DNA of 29,056 nt from a virus: positions 1-29,056 of IMG/VR virus record IMGVR_UViG_3300022707_001441. The stretch is one strand, 5' to 3'. Position 1 is the first letter of the stretch; each line of letters begins with the position of its first letter. Of this stretch, positions 14,531-28,935 are shown piece after piece. The notes under the pieces are model-generated. The model was given only the letters and a program-made list of their open reading frames with translations. It was not told where the DNA came from and ran no database searches. The translations under genes were made by a program, and so were the position numbers.

Positions 14531-15853
14531 TTAGAAGAATGAAGGTTCTTCAGTTTTAGTTTCAATATCACCGAACATTAATTCCGCTTTGTTATCGTCC
14601 AGTGCCTGGCTCTCGCGTGCCACTTTTTTCAGTGTCAGCTTACCGGCAACAACTGATATCAGTTTGGATTCTAGGTCTTTCTTCTGTCTGTCAGTCAGGT
14701 CAAGTTTCAATGCTTGAGCTGGTGACAACAGTTTGGCCGGGTAGATCTGATCCTTTTTGACCTTGCGACCTTTCAGGAACTTCTCAACTTCTTCCGGCGT
14801 ACCGAACCACTTTTTGGACGAGTTGCCTGGTACCATTCCATAACCTGATATTGTCTCACCTAGTTCAATACGCCGTTCAATTTCATCCTCAACCTGTTTG
14901 AAGATTGCCATCATGCCATCTTTCGCATCAGCTAATTCAGATAGTTTGTTCGATTCCAGGCTGGTCAGGTTACCCATTGATGCTTGAATAGTTTCAAACA
15001 AACTTTGGTCACCTACTGTTGTGACTTGGTTACTCATAGTTTCCACCACTTTTAGACTCTGTTCGCCTTGGGCAGTACAGGTACCGCCGCGTTTAGGATT
15101 ATGTTTACACCACTGGCAGTGTTTGCCGGGTATCAATGGTGCATCGGGATCATCGGTTTTGTGTGCTGCAACACTCAAATCTTCCAACCGTTCGACTAAT
15201 ACCCTGGTTTGGATTTCCTCATACCGGATCGGCGGCATTGTCTTAGGTTGTACGATGGTCATTCGACCGGCTCTCATGCGTTCGGGCCTGAACGGTCGTA
15301 CAAACTCAGGACCAGACGCGATAAACTTGCGTGCTTTACCACCGAGATAGGATGTCAGCTGGGTGTTCTCAGCAGCATTGACCCAACCACGACCATCTTT
15401 GTAATCAATCGCTTCGATAAACACACACTTGTCACCATCCATCACCGTGATGGTGATGTCACAAGTACCGTTCCAATCATCGCGGCCAAACATACCGCCG
15501 GGATCAGAATGACTTTCAGCTTCAATGGTGAGCTCTGCATTAGGGTACAGTGCTTTGAGTTCATCATAGCGACGCTTGACGTAATCAAGACAAATCTGAA
15601 CACGGTCAATACGGTCTTTGTGGATCAGCCAGCCATTCGGATTGTCTTCATGGTTGGTGCCGATGATTTGACCTTCATACTGGATTGGGAGTACTGCATT
15701 ATCCAGGCACATTTCAAGTAACAAGTGTGAACCTATGCCATCGATAGCTGCTTCACCAGATATGTCAGCATAGTTTGCTTCTTCACGCGGTGACCCTGGG
15801 CAATAGGGCCATCTTGCGTTAGAAGGGCTTAAACGAGCGTGACCGGTGCTCAT
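14531..15853 (-). CDS. DUF2800 nuclease (Cas4/RecB-like PD-(D/E)XK)
   Basis: A 440-residue DUF2800 protein, a common partner of DUF2815 in phage replication modules. The family N-terminus is visible (HARLSPSNARWPYCPGS, then GIGSHLLLE). The nuclease core shows D132 (GTCDITI), E147/D150/K152 (EAIDYKDG) and a following Gln helix (NTQLTSYLGGKA). Cys18 and a later HCQWC...GGTC cluster could bind a metal or an Fe-S cluster as in Cas4/AddB-type nucleases; this is inference. The C-terminal third is helical and charged, ending TEEPSFF. The start ATG overlaps the preceding gene's stop (TAATG). Probably an exonuclease acting with the DUF2815 protein. Confidence 0.85.
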   Translation of the reverse strand: MSTGHARLSPSNARWPYCPGSPREEANYADISGEAAIDGIGSHLLLEMCLDNAVLPIQYEGQIIGTNHEDNPNGWLIHKDRIDRVQICLDYVKRRYDELKALYPNAELTIEAESHSDPGGMFGRDDWNGTCDITITVMDGDKCVFIEAIDYKDGRGWVNAAENTQLTSYLGGKARKFIASGPEFVRPFRPERMRAGRMTIVQPKTMPPIRYEEIQTRVLVERLEDLSVAAHKTDDPDAPLIPGKHCQWCKHNPKRGGTCTAQGEQSLKVVETMSNQVTTVGDQSLFETIQASMGNLTSLESNKLSELADAKDGMMAIFKQVEDEIERRIELGETISGYGMVPGNSSKKWFGTPEEVEKFLKGRKVKKDQIYPAKLLSPAQALKLDLTDRQKKDLESKLISVVAGKLTLKKVARESQALDDNKAELMFGDIETKTEEPSFF

Positions 15854-16341
15854 TATAGCGCCTTCACAGCAGCGATCAATGCTGCATACTGTTCTGGCGG
15901 TAAGGTGGTCACCGATGCATTACCGTTGTTCAACAACTTGATTGCCGCGTCAATACCTTCACGACCACCTAACCGTTTGAATTCCTCAACCAGTGTCGCG
16001 TTAAGCTGTTCGACGGTGATGGTTGCGGCCGGCGTTGGTGTCGGCGTTGGTGTCGGGGTTGGTGTCGGGGTTGGTGTTGGTGTCGGGGTTGGTGTTGGTG
16101 TTGGTGTTGGTGTTGGTGTTGGTGTTGGTGTTGGTGTTGGTGTTGGTGTTGGTGTTGGTGTTGGTGTCGGGGTTGCTGCTGGTGATACTACAATTTCAAC
16201 CGCACCTGATACCGTTACCTTCTCAGGTATCAATAGGTCAGCCAGATCAGTTAACAATGCAACACCTCGTGCCTTAGTTTCTGCCACGCTCATCATGACA
16301 CTACCTAGTTTAATAATTTCTTCAGCGTTTTTAATCGACAT
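15853..16341 (-). CDS. Thr-Pro repeat protein with two helical end domains
   Basis: A 162-residue protein. The N-terminal ~50 residues are helical ([34 protein letters not shown]). About 25 consecutive Thr-Pro dipeptides then form a stiff linker. The C-terminal ~55 residues form a helical domain ([20 protein letters not shown], then [11 protein letters not shown]) of a type that recurs at the ends of phage proteins. Two domains joined by an extended rod suggest a tether or scaffold for the replication proteins encoded just downstream; this is inference. ATG 16341 overlaps the regulator gene by 11 nt. The linker is encoded by a hexanucleotide repeat. Confidence 0.7.
16030..16176. repeat. Hexanucleotide tandem repeat encoding (TP)n
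   Basis: About 147 bp of near-perfect hexamers GGTGTT with scattered GGTGTC/GGGGTT variants. Because the unit is 6 nt, changes in copy number keep the frame and only alter linker length. The variants cluster at both ends and the middle is uniform, as expected from repeated slippage. Confidence 0.95.
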
Positions 16342-17113: not shown

Positions 17114-19669
17114 ATGCAAATATCAAATATTGAATTCTTAAAAGCTTTATTTGCTGAAGATTTTGAGTTAGTACATGTCACTGATTTCAGTTACGATCCT
17201 AACAATATACCGAACAACCGTCACCTGGCAGCATGGTCAGGTGATTACTTCAAGCAATATCAATTCGGGCAGAACACCAATCAGTACTTCACCATCAGTA
17301 ACTTCCACAGTGACGAAACCGGACGGGCCCGACGGCGCAAGGCATTATTCAAACACACACGGGTTATCGTACTTGATGATGTGAAAGAAAAACTGTCAAT
17401 GGTTGAGGTATCTAAGCTTCCGTCACCGTCGTGGATCCTCGAATCATCAGCTGGTTCGGAACAGTACGGGTACATTCTCAATGAACCTTGCACCAATCGG
17501 TTCATGATAGAAAACCTACTTGACGGGCTGGTGGCTAACGGGCTGGCACCCGACGGTCGCGACCCTGGCATGAAGGGCGTAACACGGTATGTCCGGTTAC
17601 CCGAAGGTATTAACAATAAAGCAAGCAAGCTGGTGGACGGACGCCCATTCAACTGTCAAATCACGTTGTGGAACCCATTCAGCACAGTGACACTTGAACA
17701 ACTGGCGGCACCGTTTAACGTCAATCTTAACGCTGAGCGCCGGGAACAACGTGTTGACGGTGCTGCTAACGTTGAAGGGCACCCACTGCTTGATGTTCAT
17801 GATGTGATCCATATCAAGGAAGTACGGTCTGACGGTCGGTTCGACATCACTTGTCCCTGGGTGGATGAGCACACAGGCGGCGATGATAGCGGTAGTGCAG
17901 TGTTCACCAATGATGACGGTTCTATCGGGTTTAAATGTCACCACGGTGCGTGCCAATCCCGTACCGGGCGCGACTTGCTAAAGCTTATTGAGAACAAGTC
18001 ACCAGGTTTCGGTGCCACGCTGGCATCCTGGAAGTCATTGCGTTCATTCGCTGATGTATCAAATCTGTCGTTCATGGATCCACCAGTCTCGTTCATGGAG
18101 TCATCACCGTCACCAACCGTCACCACATTGGAACCTCCGACCGATGGGTTGCAGACAGCACTTGACGGATTACGCCGCGAGCGCCCGACATCGCCAAAGG
18201 CCCGACAGTTATCGCAGCATATATTGCAAGCTGTTGAAGAATTACCAGTGATGGACAAACTGCATTACCATGATCAAGTGTGTGATCTGATGTGTTGGTC
18301 AAAGGCTGATTTTAAAACCATCATCAAGGATTTACGTGAACAGTGGTACAGCAACGGGACACAATCCGCTCAATTTTTCGATGACATGGTATTCATCAAA
18401 GAACAAAATCAATTCTATAACTATCGCAACCAGATTTTCTATTCAGCAGAAGCCTTTCAAAACTCATACTCAGATCAGGATATCGAAGCACGTAAGACAG
18501 CGTTGCAGGAAGGCCGTGTTCAGAAAGTTGACAAACTTGATTATGCACCGCGTCAACCGCGTATATTCACCGAAAACAATATCGTCTATGCAAACACATG
18601 GGATGAAAACACACTGACACAGGGTGTGGTGGGTGATCCCTCACCCTGGTTGAATCACTTTGACGCATTGGGTTGGGAAAAAGAGAAGAAGCACATTCTT
18701 CAATGGATGGCTTACACGCTGCAGTTCCCCGAAAACAAAATTAATCACATGATTATCTTGGGCAGTGGTGAGGGTTGCGGTAAGGATTTTCTACTAAGCC
18801 CGTTGGTTCATGCCATGGGTAATAACAGTACGACGATTGATGGTGATACGCTGTTAGAACCTTTCAATGAATACCTGCTTGGTACCAAGTTCTTGTGCAT
18901 TAACGAGACCGAACTGGGTGACCGGCGCGAAGCGACCGCGGTCAGTAACAAACTCAAACCACTAGCGGCTGCACCACCAAAGGTCTTACGAGTCAACCAA
19001 AAAGGCATCAAAGCGATAAAAATTCGCAACATTGTCAGTGCGGCGATGACTACAAACAGCCAGCTGCCAATACGTATTAATAATGTATCGCGCCGATTTT
19101 TTGCAGTATGGTCTGACCTCACTACACGTGATGACCGTGATGAAATATTGCCTGAATGGGAAAGTTACTGGGAAAGTCTATGGTCCTGGATGGATAACGG
19201 TGGTGTTGAAATGTGCATATACCATCTACGTAATTGTGTCGATTTAAGCGACTTTAAACCGGCATCGTCGCCGCCAATGACTGAATTCCTACGTGACATC
19301 AGAGAAGCATCGAAGTCACCATACCAGCAAACCATCGAGGCATTCATCCGGTTACGCATCGGTGCATTCGCCAGTGATTTGGTTACCGCGGTTGACATGG
19401 TTAGCACACTTAAAGCCGGCGAGTTAATTGCACCAGATTCAATGTACTGTAACGGTCAGTTCTTCACACCAGTTAAGGTGGGTCTGATCTTAAGAGAAAT
19501 GCAAGGCTGTCGTAAACTGAGAGGTCGACAAGGTCAGGTAGAAGTGAGCCCCTGGTCAATACGCAACACCAGCAAGCACAGTAACATGAATGCTGAAGAA
19601 GTTTACGACGAGTACGAGCGTCAGAACCAGGCAGCGAGACAACAACAAGGTTTAACGGTGGTGAGATAA
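17114..19669 (+). CDS. Primase-helicase (AEP-like primase, SF3/D5-type helicase)
   Basis: An 851-residue fusion. The N-terminal part carries archaeo-eukaryotic-type primase signs: VIVLDDV (about residue 93), ESSAGSEQYGYIL (about 115) and TRYVRLPEGINNK (about 157). A Cys/His segment (CPWVDEHT, then FKCHHGACQ, about 248-282) may bind zinc. The C-terminal helicase has Walker A GSGEGCGKD (about 550), Walker B FLCINETE, sensor SAAMTTNSQLP and an arginine-finger region SRRFFAVW, the pattern of DUF5906/D5-type superfamily 3 helicases. It should prime and unwind DNA for the family B polymerase encoded on the opposite strand. Only a weak GGTG precedes the start. The stop overlaps the methyltransferase start (TAATG). 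Confidence 0.85.
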   Translation: MQISNIEFLKALFAEDFELVHVTDFSYDPNNIPNNRHLAAWSGDYFKQYQFGQNTNQYFTISNFHSDETGRARRRKALFKHTRVIVLDDVKEKLSMVEVSKLPSPSWILESSAGSEQYGYILNEPCTNRFMIENLLDGLVANGLAPDGRDPGMKGVTRYVRLPEGINNKASKLVDGRPFNCQITLWNPFSTVTLEQLAAPFNVNLNAERREQRVDGAANVEGHPLLDVHDVIHIKEVRSDGRFDITCPWVDEHTGGDDSGSAVFTNDDGSIGFKCHHGACQSRTGRDLLKLIENKSPGFGATLASWKSLRSFADVSNLSFMDPPVSFMESSPSPTVTTLEPPTDGLQTALDGLRRERPTSPKARQLSQHILQAVEELPVMDKLHYHDQVCDLMCWSKADFKTIIKDLREQWYSNGTQSAQFFDDMVFIKEQNQFYNYRNQIFYSAEAFQNSYSDQDIEARKTALQEGRVQKVDKLDYAPRQPRIFTENNIVYANTWDENTLTQGVVGDPSPWLNHFDALGWEKEKKHILQWMAYTLQFPENKINHMIILGSGEGCGKDFLLSPLVHAMGNNSTTIDGDTLLEPFNEYLLGTKFLCINETELGDRREATAVSNKLKPLAAAPPKVLRVNQKGIKAIKIRNIVSAAMTTNSQLPIRINNVSRRFFAVWSDLTTRDDRDEILPEWESYWESLWSWMDNGGVEMCIYHLRNCVDLSDFKPASSPPMTEFLRDIREASKSPYQQTIEAFIRLRIGAFASDLVTAVDMVSTLKAGELIAPDSMYCNGQFFTPVKVGLILREMQGCRKLRGRQGQVEVSPWSIRNTSKHSNMNAEEVYDEYERQNQAARQQQGLTVVR

Positions 19670-26491: not shown

Positions 26492-26905
26492 CTACATAAA
26501 CGACGGTTCGTCTTTCTTGTTGTCATCGGTTAACTTTTTAACATAGTCAGTGTTAGGTGGTGACGTTGCTGCTGTGCTGTGTGCTGCCCTTAACCTCTTA
26601 GCATATACTTCTTCACTGACAGAAGGGGTATAACCCTCTGGTGTTTCAGTATCGAATCGTTGGACGCGTTCTTTGGGGCCTATGATTGCCTTGTTCAGAT
26701 CCTGGAGCTGTTGCCGGTGTTCAATAGCTTCAGCAAGCAGTGGTTCACACAGCTCCCAGTTGTTTATCACCATTAGTAATACAGCTGACGTGGTTACCGT
26801 GCCGGTGCGTTGACGTGCTACTGCTGACCGGCATATATCTAGCTTTACACCGAGCTCACGCATCGTGCAGTCCTGGATTTGATAAAATTGGTCCATGGTA
26901 ATCAT
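26492..26905 (-). CDS. Putative HTH regulator, 137 aa
   Basis: The N-terminal 50 residues (MDQFYQIQDCTMRELGVKLD, ICRSAVARQRTGTVTTSAVL) resemble a small phage Cro/XRE-type HTH: a helix, the turn at KLDICRSAV, then a recognition-like helix. The C-terminal half is charged and probably disordered, ending KKDEPSFM. AGGA lies 8 nt upstream of ATG 26905. It ends 7 nt before the -35 box of the accessory-operon promoter, so it is transcribed separately and could control that promoter and its copy at 16.58 kb; this is inference from position. Confidence 0.55.
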   Translation of the reverse strand: MITMDQFYQIQDCTMRELGVKLDICRSAVARQRTGTVTTSAVLLMVINNWELCEPLLAEAIEHRQQLQDLNKAIIGPKERVQRFDTETPEGYTPSVSEEVYAKRLRAAHSTAATSPPNTDYVKKLTDDNKKDEPSFM

Positions 26906-26944
26906 GAGAATTATTCCTATTTAGAAATAGTTGAAAATAAATGA

Positions 26945-26992
26945 TGTCTAAAAGCACGGGGTTAGCCGCAATCGGACTTATGCTTTTAGACA
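26945..26992. repeat. 12-bp inverted repeat (hairpin)
   Basis: TGTCTAAAAGCA (26945-26956) pairs perfectly with TGCTTTTAGACA (26981-26992) around a 24-nt loop. The loop contains CGGGGTTAGCCGC, which is complementary to 27156-27168, so a hairpin-loop/long-range pairing is possible in RNA. Confidence 0.75.
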
Positions 26993-27003
26993 CTCTTGCA
27001 TTT

Positions 27004-27052
27004 TTGACAGTGTACATAAGCTATCGTATCAAATTATCTTACACAGTGTCAA
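27004..27052. promoter_or_regulatory. Face-to-face promoter-like boxes
   Basis: Plus strand: TTGACA (27004-27009), 17 nt, TATCAA (27027-27032). Minus strand: TTGACA (27052-27047), 18 nt, TACGAT (27028-27023). The two -10 boxes overlap, so the promoters would compete. The minus one could drive the HTH regulator gene. Confidence 0.4.
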
Positions 27053-27093
27053 TAAGAGACTGTTAGACTGTTTTTAGGTGTAAATGCTCTGAA

Positions 27094-27116
27094 AGTCAGG
27101 CTGTGTGGCACTATAA
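27094..27116 (+). repeat. 23-bp direct repeat, copy 1 (phage-promoter-like)
   Basis: The unit runs from AGTCAGG to CTATAA and differs from copy 2 (27242-27264) at two positions. GGCACTATAAGG at its 3' end is reminiscent of single-subunit RNA polymerase promoters, whose usual length is also about 23 bp. Confidence 0.5.
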
Positions 27117-27241
27117 GGTTTCGTGAATGTCGATAAGACACTCAATGGTTCCATCGCGGCTAACCCCGTCCTAGACCGTTAAAGGCAGGGGGCTGTAGAG
27201 TACCTCGGGGTTAGTCTCAGGCCGACCTACCCCGTGCTGAT

Positions 27242-27264
27242 AGTCAAGCTGTGTGGAACTATAA
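27242..27264 (+). repeat. 23-bp direct repeat, copy 2
   Basis: Matches copy 1 at 21 of 23 positions, 148 bp downstream, in the same orientation, reading CTGTGTGGAACTATAA in its conserved core. Confidence 0.5.
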
Positions 27265-27441
27265 CTGGTCACATGAGAACCGGATCGTCTTTTTTAACCA
27301 ATATTAGTAAGATATAAAATCGATATACTGTCAATCTCAAATCTTGAATATTAGTAAAAGTGAATAGTGTCTTATAGACATAGCGGATATACATACAGTA
27401 GTTTTTATTGGCATACCAGTTGCATAGTAAAATGAGCCTAT

Positions 27442-27471
27442 TTGTGGTGTGGTAGCCCCCTGGTGTATAAT
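27442..27471 (+). promoter_or_regulatory. Promoter for the terminase small subunit gene
   Basis: TTGTGG (27442-27447), 18 nt, perfect TATAAT (27466-27471), 32 nt before ATG 27503. The good -10 compensates a weak -35. Confidence 0.5.
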
Positions 27472-27502
27472 CAGTGCAACAGCAATAACGTGACACGGTA
27501 TT

Positions 27503-27967
27503 ATGAGCAAGCGGTTAAAGTGTAGGGACTTCCCGAAACTATCATTCAAAGAAGCAGCCTTCGTGATTGAATACACGAAAGACTTTGCGCCCCGGCGTGC
27601 TGCTGAAGCGGTGGGACTATGTCCTGACTCTGGTTATCAATGGGTGAAAAAGGACAACATCCAGGAAGCCATTGATGATGTTCTGGTGATGAGACTGGAC
27701 AATTACCAGATTGATGCTGAGTGGGTATTGTATGAAGCCGTTGATAATCACCTGATTGCCCGGCAGTGTGGCAACATCACCGCCAGCAACACCGCCCTGA
27801 AACTTATTGCTCAACACACCCTGGTGGACGCCATGGCAGCCAAGCGGGTTGATGTTGACTTCCAGACCGATGAAGAAGTGATGAAGCGGCTGTTGCGCGG
27901 TAGACAGCGCTTACGTGAGCAAGGTAAACTGCCAGCACTGCCTGACGACAACGTGTCGTTCTTCTAA
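27503..27967 (+). CDS. Terminase small subunit
   Basis: A 154-residue protein with the layout of phage small terminase subunits: an N-terminal HTH region (LSFKEAAFVIEYTKDFAPRR, AAEAVGLCPDSGYQWVKKDN), a central helical oligomerisation segment (IDAEWVLYEAVDNHLIARQC, NTALKLIAQHTLVDAMAAKR) and a polar C-terminal tail (LPDDNVSFF). It recognises the packaging site and recruits the large ATPase/nuclease subunit, which is not in this window. The gene-free repeat region upstream could contain its binding site. Only a weak ribosome site is seen. The next gene follows after 11 nt. Confidence 0.75.
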   Translation: MSKRLKCRDFPKLSFKEAAFVIEYTKDFAPRRAAEAVGLCPDSGYQWVKKDNIQEAIDDVLVMRLDNYQIDAEWVLYEAVDNHLIARQCGNITASNTALKLIAQHTLVDAMAAKRVDVDFQTDEEVMKRLLRGRQRLREQGKLPALPDDNVSFF

Positions 27968-27978
27968 GGGGTATAACT

Positions 27979-28935
27979 GTGTTACTAAAACCAATGCTGC
28001 AACCGATGCTGAATACATTAACGGATTTGGATAGGCGAATATTCATCACCCACGACCCAATACTGCAAACCCACGGTACAATGCAGAACACTAAGACGTA
28101 TACTGCTGATTTTAAATTTATCTTTCTAATTGTACCTAACACTCTGGCGTCCACTCTTGGGATACTCGGACACACTACAGGGGCAACTGTTGATTTTATC
28201 GCCCTTTTAAGTCCGGGAATTATTAGGGTCAGGATGGGAGGGGCAGACCACGACTTTACAACAAACCCATTAATCGTTGCCAAGCTTAATATCGTTGAAG
28301 TAGAACGAATAGGTACCACAACAACAGTGACCATTAATGGTGCTAGCCAAGCTATTGTTACAGGAGCAGCATCGGTAGTATATAATTTAACAGGTGCTAT
28401 AGGCGCAGGGTTTTTCTTTGATGGCGCTTACGCAGACCCAATCCTAACCGACCTAACAACACCTGGAAACTCAGAATCATGGAAACTCGACCAACCGTTC
28501 CCAATCACAACAGAGCAGTCGAGCAGTGGTAGTAATCTGCTAACATATGTTAATGCAGCAGCTAGTACTCGTGAGTTGTTTACGCGGGTTGACGCAGGTT
28601 GGTTTGGGGTTGAGAGAGCTAGTATAATTGCCGTTAACCAAACAGATGTGCCACCGTCTACAACATTATCCTTGCTCATGCAAGGAACAACCCCCAAATT
28701 GGGGGAAACATATAGGTTGTCTTTTAGAAATATTGTTCTTTCTAGTGGGACAATTAATAGACTATTCAATAATGTATTCACTGATGTAGCGACTTCGGGC
28801 GACGACATTAGTGATGTTATTATGACTGATGTTCAAAACTCTGCGACATGGAGAGTTCAAACTAACTCAAGCAATCCAGGAAATATTGACGTAAGCGTAG
28901 ATGTATCAGCCAAACGATTCCTAGAGGTAGCATAA
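27979..28935 (+). CDS. Phage structural protein with a LamG-like jelly-roll domain
   Basis: A 318-residue protein starting at GTG 27979 (AAGGGG about 7 nt upstream). Residues ~35-155 are strand-rich with the rhythm of concanavalin/LamG domains (TYTADFKFIFLIVPNTLAS, IRVRMGGADHDFTTNPLIVA, VTINGASQAIVTGAASVVYN, GFFFDGAYADPILTD). Residues ~155-200 carry a Ser-Trp linker (SESWKLDQPFPITTEQ), and the rest is a second beta region (IVLSSGTINRLFNNVFTDVA). Such proteins occur as decoration, tail or appendage components that bind carbohydrate. The stop overlaps the next start (TAATG). Family assignment is by fold-like pattern. Confidence 0.55.
   Translation: MLLKPMLQPMLNTLTDLDRRIFITHDPILQTHGTMQNTKTYTADFKFIFLIVPNTLASTLGILGHTTGATVDFIALLSPGIIRVRMGGADHDFTTNPLIVAKLNIVEVERIGTTTTVTINGASQAIVTGAASVVYNLTGAIGAGFFFDGAYADPILTDLTTPGNSESWKLDQPFPITTEQSSSGSNLLTYVNAAASTRELFTRVDAGWFGVERASIIAVNQTDVPPSTTLSLLMQGTTPKLGETYRLSFRNIVLSSGTINRLFNNVFTDVATSGDDISDVIMTDVQNSATWRVQTNSSNPGNIDVSVDVSAKRFLEVA

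Follow-up and report, generated by a model that had tools for sequence, protein, structure and literature searches.

Inverted word array in the noncoding gap upstream of the small terminase gene of a virus contig: a possible iteron-type replication origin

The origin of P4 combines iterons with an AT-rich tract and an initiator that is an element-encoded primase-helicase. PICI/SaPI origins are likewise made of short words acting as iterons, an AT-rich tract and an element-encoded primase-helicase, the PICI origins always having two iteron sets that flank the AT-rich region and lying directly 3' of the initiator gene (PMC6092414). Packaging sites can also carry short binding sites next to the gene for the small terminase subunit (TerS). 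In lambda, cosB adjoins terS and combines an IHF site with TerS sites that face both ways, three R sites in 120 bp; the cosB of N15 has a second, inverted copy ~200 bp away (PMC4669245). In SPP1 pac, three sets of direct repeats lie upstream of and into terS, covering the terS promoters and the gene start (PMC4737164), while the pac site of phage P1 occupies 161 bp inside pacA and contains several copies of a short, Dam-sensitive TGATC word together with an IHF site (PMC10028697).

Here we compare these systems with a locus in a linear virus contig of 29,056 bases, analysed over its whole length (the window), whose relatives are the Vibrio phages MZH0603, PS25B.1, 1.021 and 1.185, BPP-1-like phages being more distant. 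A 597-base noncoding gap separates a leftward 137-aa gene from terS, and the features discussed below are as follows.

17114-19669, + strand: DUF5906 primase-helicase, the candidate initiator (PF19263; conserved in relatives)
26492-26905, - strand: leftward 137-aa gene, C-terminus DEPSFM (ORF list)
26906-27502, no strand assigned: noncoding word array (gap in the ORF list; top 500-bp interval of the contig for inverted 8-mers)
26945-26992, no strand assigned: 12-bp inverted repeat, 24-nt loop containing one CGGGGTTAG word (read and recomputed)
26957-26967, + strand: CGGGGTTAGCC word, copy 1 (word scan)
27158-27168, - strand: CGGGGTTAGCC word, copy 2, in opposite orientation, inside the 27156-27169 half of a 14-bp match
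27206-27216, + strand: CGGGGTTAGTC word, copy 3 (word scan)
27224-27234, - strand: CGGGGTAGGTC, diverged copy 4 with 2 mismatches, forming a dyad with copy 3
26988-27372, both strands: six [AT]GACA[CG]T words (26988+, 27005+, 27045-, 27136+, 27327-, 27366-)
27089-27264, + strand: 28-bp direct repeat, 27089-27116 and 27237-27264, 89% identical (repeat scan)
27285-27430, no strand assigned: AT-rich tract, 28% GC, with two AATATTAGTAA repeats (27300, 27347), a candidate melting region
27503-27967, + strand: terS, small terminase subunit (PF03592; profile matches SF6-type TerS structures)

All of the elements listed in the initial annotation were recovered where it had placed them, upstream of terS. 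The perfect 12-bp inverted repeat pairs TGTCTAAAAGCA (26945-26956) with TGCTTTTAGACA (26981-26992); it is the sole case in the contig with an arm of at least 11 bp and a loop of up to 40, and over 150 dinucleotide shuffles the region never reached an arm of 12, the longest being 10. The long-range complement holds over 14 bp, ACGGGGTTAGCCGC at 26956-26969 pairing perfectly with 27156-27169, a length reached in none of 500 shuffles. A further hairpin at 27206-27234, reported as CGGGGTTAG/CTACCCCG, is present as an imperfect one (9 vs 8 bases, with one bulge). What the first reading overlooked is a repeated word, CGGGGTTAGNC, which occurs as exact copies at 26957 (+), 27158 (-) and 27206 (+) and nowhere else in the contig at up to 1 mismatch. 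The diverged copy at 27224 (-), taken alone a chance-level match, has AGCACGGGGT in common with position 26953. We propose that the hairpin and the long-range match reflect a shared set of words placed in opposite orientations and not the folding of an RNA, and that both are best regarded as copies of short DNA words within a control region, packed with repeats, of a Vibrio-type phage.

The whole gap contains 21 repeated 9-mer pairs in either orientation, compared with 2.75 +/- 2.11 in shuffles (maximum 11), and the top 500-bp interval of the contig, located here, has 22 inverted 8-mer pairs against a mean of 3.06. The [AT]GACA[CG]T words number six, three per strand, where 0.42 would be expected from the rest of the contig, an enrichment that is indicative only since the pattern was picked after inspection. 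The AT-rich tract at 27285-27430, with its repeated 11-mer, adjoins the array; a second tract lies at 26993-27090 (34% GC). Neither is clearly flanked by word sets, the 27285-27430 tract sitting beside the words. The 28-bp direct repeat, which ends in ACTATAA, is possibly a pair of promoters or bend sites; its similarity to the IHF modules of relatives, of which it might have been a diverged form, was not significant. A leftward promoter is predicted at 27052-27023 (TTGACA-18-TACGAT), and a TATAAT stands at ~27466, before terS. The latter suggests that terS transcription would start downstream of all the elements, whereas the hairpin would fall in the leader of any leftward transcript made from the predicted promoter. 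GC skew gave no origin signal and tracks the coding strand.

The neighbouring genes were examined by profile and structure. The leftward 137-aa product matched no family at the default cut-off, and its predicted structure is of low confidence. TerS of the window matches the SF6-type TerS structure 3zqp by profile (E 0.002), and a fold search with it returned no significant match. Directly after terS lies a 318-aa ORF (27979-28935, +) with no Pfam or PHROG match, at the place where relatives carry terL. Further away, the ORF at 15853-16341 (-) encodes a long (PT)n repeat derived from a short tandem repeat, the opposite strand being open as (GV)n. An acidic tail plus [PVI]SF[FLM] ends 3-4 proteins per genome (in the window, C-termini at 14531 (-), 26492 (-) and 27967 (+); it also occurs in loci L051, L052 and L053); it is carried by TerS, by a DUF2800 protein, by the product of the gene to the left of the array and in some cases by that of the ORF preceding terS, and resembles a common docking tail for a single partner.

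Among public phages, the search for close DNA relatives of the window gave a single short match; scanning viral contigs with terS and the leftward gene as single-sequence queries, and scanning genome contigs, found no close relative, and of two word-pattern scans of viral contigs one gave 2 matches, about the number estimated for chance, and the other 0. An alignment search yielded 22 terS loci. In 17 of 19 family sequences, window included, inverted words peak in the stretch upstream of terS, which is also the top interval in the complete records of 1.021, 1.185, PS25B.1 and BPP-1, with a slim margin over the next interval in 1.021 and PS25B.1; in the whole MZH0603 genome it is not the top one. 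The words themselves vary by phage (TGACACAT, TGACACGT, TTGACACTA, TGACGCAT, CCGTGACG, ACACGGGA and others), usually with a common TGAC core, and 13 of 18 sequences show enrichment of TGAC[AG]C (P below 0.005). Perfect IHF-consensus sites are over-represented in the relatives' arrays, often mixed with the words. Upstream of terS in locus L025 (4471-4705) there are five such sites spaced 54-55 bp apart, each within a GCTAAGTCATTGAT repeat. In the window, the 1 kb preceding terS contains no perfect IHF consensus. MZH0603 and locus L020 form the closest informative pair: their TerS proteins are 98% identical and differ only near the C-terminus, their words shift at matching positions, and one hairpin is lost without compensatory changes, which in this one pair favours DNA sites over RNA structure. 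In the LS06 record (OP947166.1, locus L059) the first ~126 bases repeat the record end, inside the array, which reflects either an assembly overlap or a terminal repeat.

Which protein would read the words can be narrowed by comparing gene content. Family A5, to which the leftward gene belongs, has a member next to the array in 13 of 23 records (L002 2434-3315, L003 2537-2995, L018 4003-4443 and others), and its conserved C-terminal domain, of QGRRWF type, is present twice in MZH0603 and L020. It is missing from several records with strong arrays, which rules out the leftward gene as a universal binder and leaves TerS and the DUF5906 primase-helicase as the widely conserved candidates. In LS06, which lacks a detectable homologue of the window TerS, the primase is present together with a TGAC[AG]C array. 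AF, whose TerS is weakly similar, and HU1 both have helicases of the DnaB type, and neither shows such an array by terS. In pAN a strong array lies at the 3' end of the DUF5906 primase gene; in MW202483 and VP2 strong arrays lie nearer the terminase genes. PW916 and ZP6 have primases related to that of the window and no strong array, and the scores of five control phages reach 14-20, the window scoring 22. With more phages added, the case for dividing arrays cleanly by replication module became weaker, and the words track neither TerS nor primase similarity simply. The link between array and primase type is suggestive only, and the comparison leans towards replication as the role of the array reader, though not cleanly.

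Several lines of evidence lead us to favour, tentatively and at somewhat less than even confidence, the reading that the elements are words serving as DNA binding sites within an iteron-type origin of PICI/SaPI/P4-like character used by the phage DUF5906 primase-helicase. The initial annotation had suggested an origin or a packaging site, and the words in both orientations and the recurrence of the array upstream of the relatives' terS support that pair of possibilities. For an origin in particular speak these same inverted words, which make the stretch the top interval of the contig and of most family sequences, the adjoining AT-rich tract with its repeated 11-mer, the excess of IHF sites in relatives, the array of LS06, the position of the pAN array where PICI origins lie (PMC6092414), and the arrayless DnaB-type phages AF and HU1. 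We infer that the words would be bound by an initiator, for which the SF3-type (DUF5906) primase-helicase of the phage is the most likely candidate, after which the AT-rich tract would melt and the helicase load; in relatives, folding of the complex would be aided by the IHF sites interspersed with the words. As in PICI/P4-type origins, multiple copies of a short word are present (three exact and one diverged CGGGGTTAGNC, six [AT]GACA[CG]T) and the element encodes a primase-helicase (PF19263 in 17114-19669). Unlike PICI origins, which are directly 3' of the initiator gene, the window array, for which initiator binding is putative, adjoins terS, and the primase gene ends at 19669, ~7 kb from the array start at 26906. 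Also against an origin are the AT-rich tract lying beside rather than clearly between two word sets, the GC skew, the loose relation of words to primase similarity, and PW916, ZP6 and the high-scoring controls.

The main and serious rival, which we nevertheless consider rather unlikely, is a pac or cosB-like packaging-initiation site at which TerS would bind the words immediately in front of its own gene and TerL would cut nearby, IHF or a similar protein bending the DNA in relatives; origin and packaging may share the place. In BPP-1 and the Vibrio relatives the array precedes terS, with or without an intervening ORF, and the window words, in both orientations upstream of terS, could serve as TerS sites in the manner of lambda and N15 cosB. 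The arrays here are longer than cosB, and the window has no perfect IHF site between the candidate TerS sites, although several relatives have one. PF03592 and the 3zqp profile match relate the window TerS to the SPP1/SF6 type, and SPP1 pac, too, has repeats upstream of terS; these are direct repeats, whereas the window array consists mainly of inverted copies, and the DNA-binding domain of SF6 TerS has little sequence preference (PMC4737164). The several copies of a short word recall P1 pac, whose Dam-sensitive words have no counterpart identified in the window array. The records of 1.021 and 1.185 begin within or next to the array, at positions that are not start codons, and some records of that collection were cut at coverage-defined ends (PMC6029569); as physical ends, these starts are suggestive only. 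Weighing against packaging are the TGAC[AG]C array kept in LS06 without a detectable homologue of the window TerS, the lack of an array in AF despite its weakly similar TerS, and the differing words of MZH0603 and L020 despite TerS proteins that differ only near the C-terminus.

It is less probable still that the gap is a promoter/operator in which a phage regulator binds the words and switches between leftward and rightward (late) transcription. The gap does lie between divergent genes, holds the predicted leftward promoter and the TATAAT before terS, has a direct repeat that could be two promoters, and is often accompanied by A5; yet a promoter scan found sites no more numerous than in shuffles, several strong-array records lack A5, and some arrays come after a rightward gene and hence are not divergent junctions. 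Far down the scale comes a structured RNA, as the initial annotation had also envisaged, or an antisense RNA, with loop-loop pairing of 26957-26969 with 27156-27168. Predicted folds are stable (z -2.7 for the + strand, -5.1 for the - strand) and the loop-target duplex is predicted at about -32 to -35 kcal/mol, but any DNA with many inverted repeats should fold strongly on both strands. The RNA reading fared poorly: Rfam at gathering thresholds gave 0 matches, including to C4/P4-type antisense RNA, the relatives carry different words and no shared structure, and the MZH0603 hairpin is broken in L020 without compensation.

The array marks a likely start of replication or packaging in a little-studied Vibrio-type podovirus group. 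Its related phages form a natural series in which the array is fixed in place and the words change, and this makes the identity of the array reader testable. We regard it as quite improbable, though worth stating, that one combined origin/packaging array is kept across a family of phages at a fixed place beside terS with its recognition word rewritten from phage to phage by a binding protein; if so, replication and packaging specificity would change together, separating co-infecting relatives.
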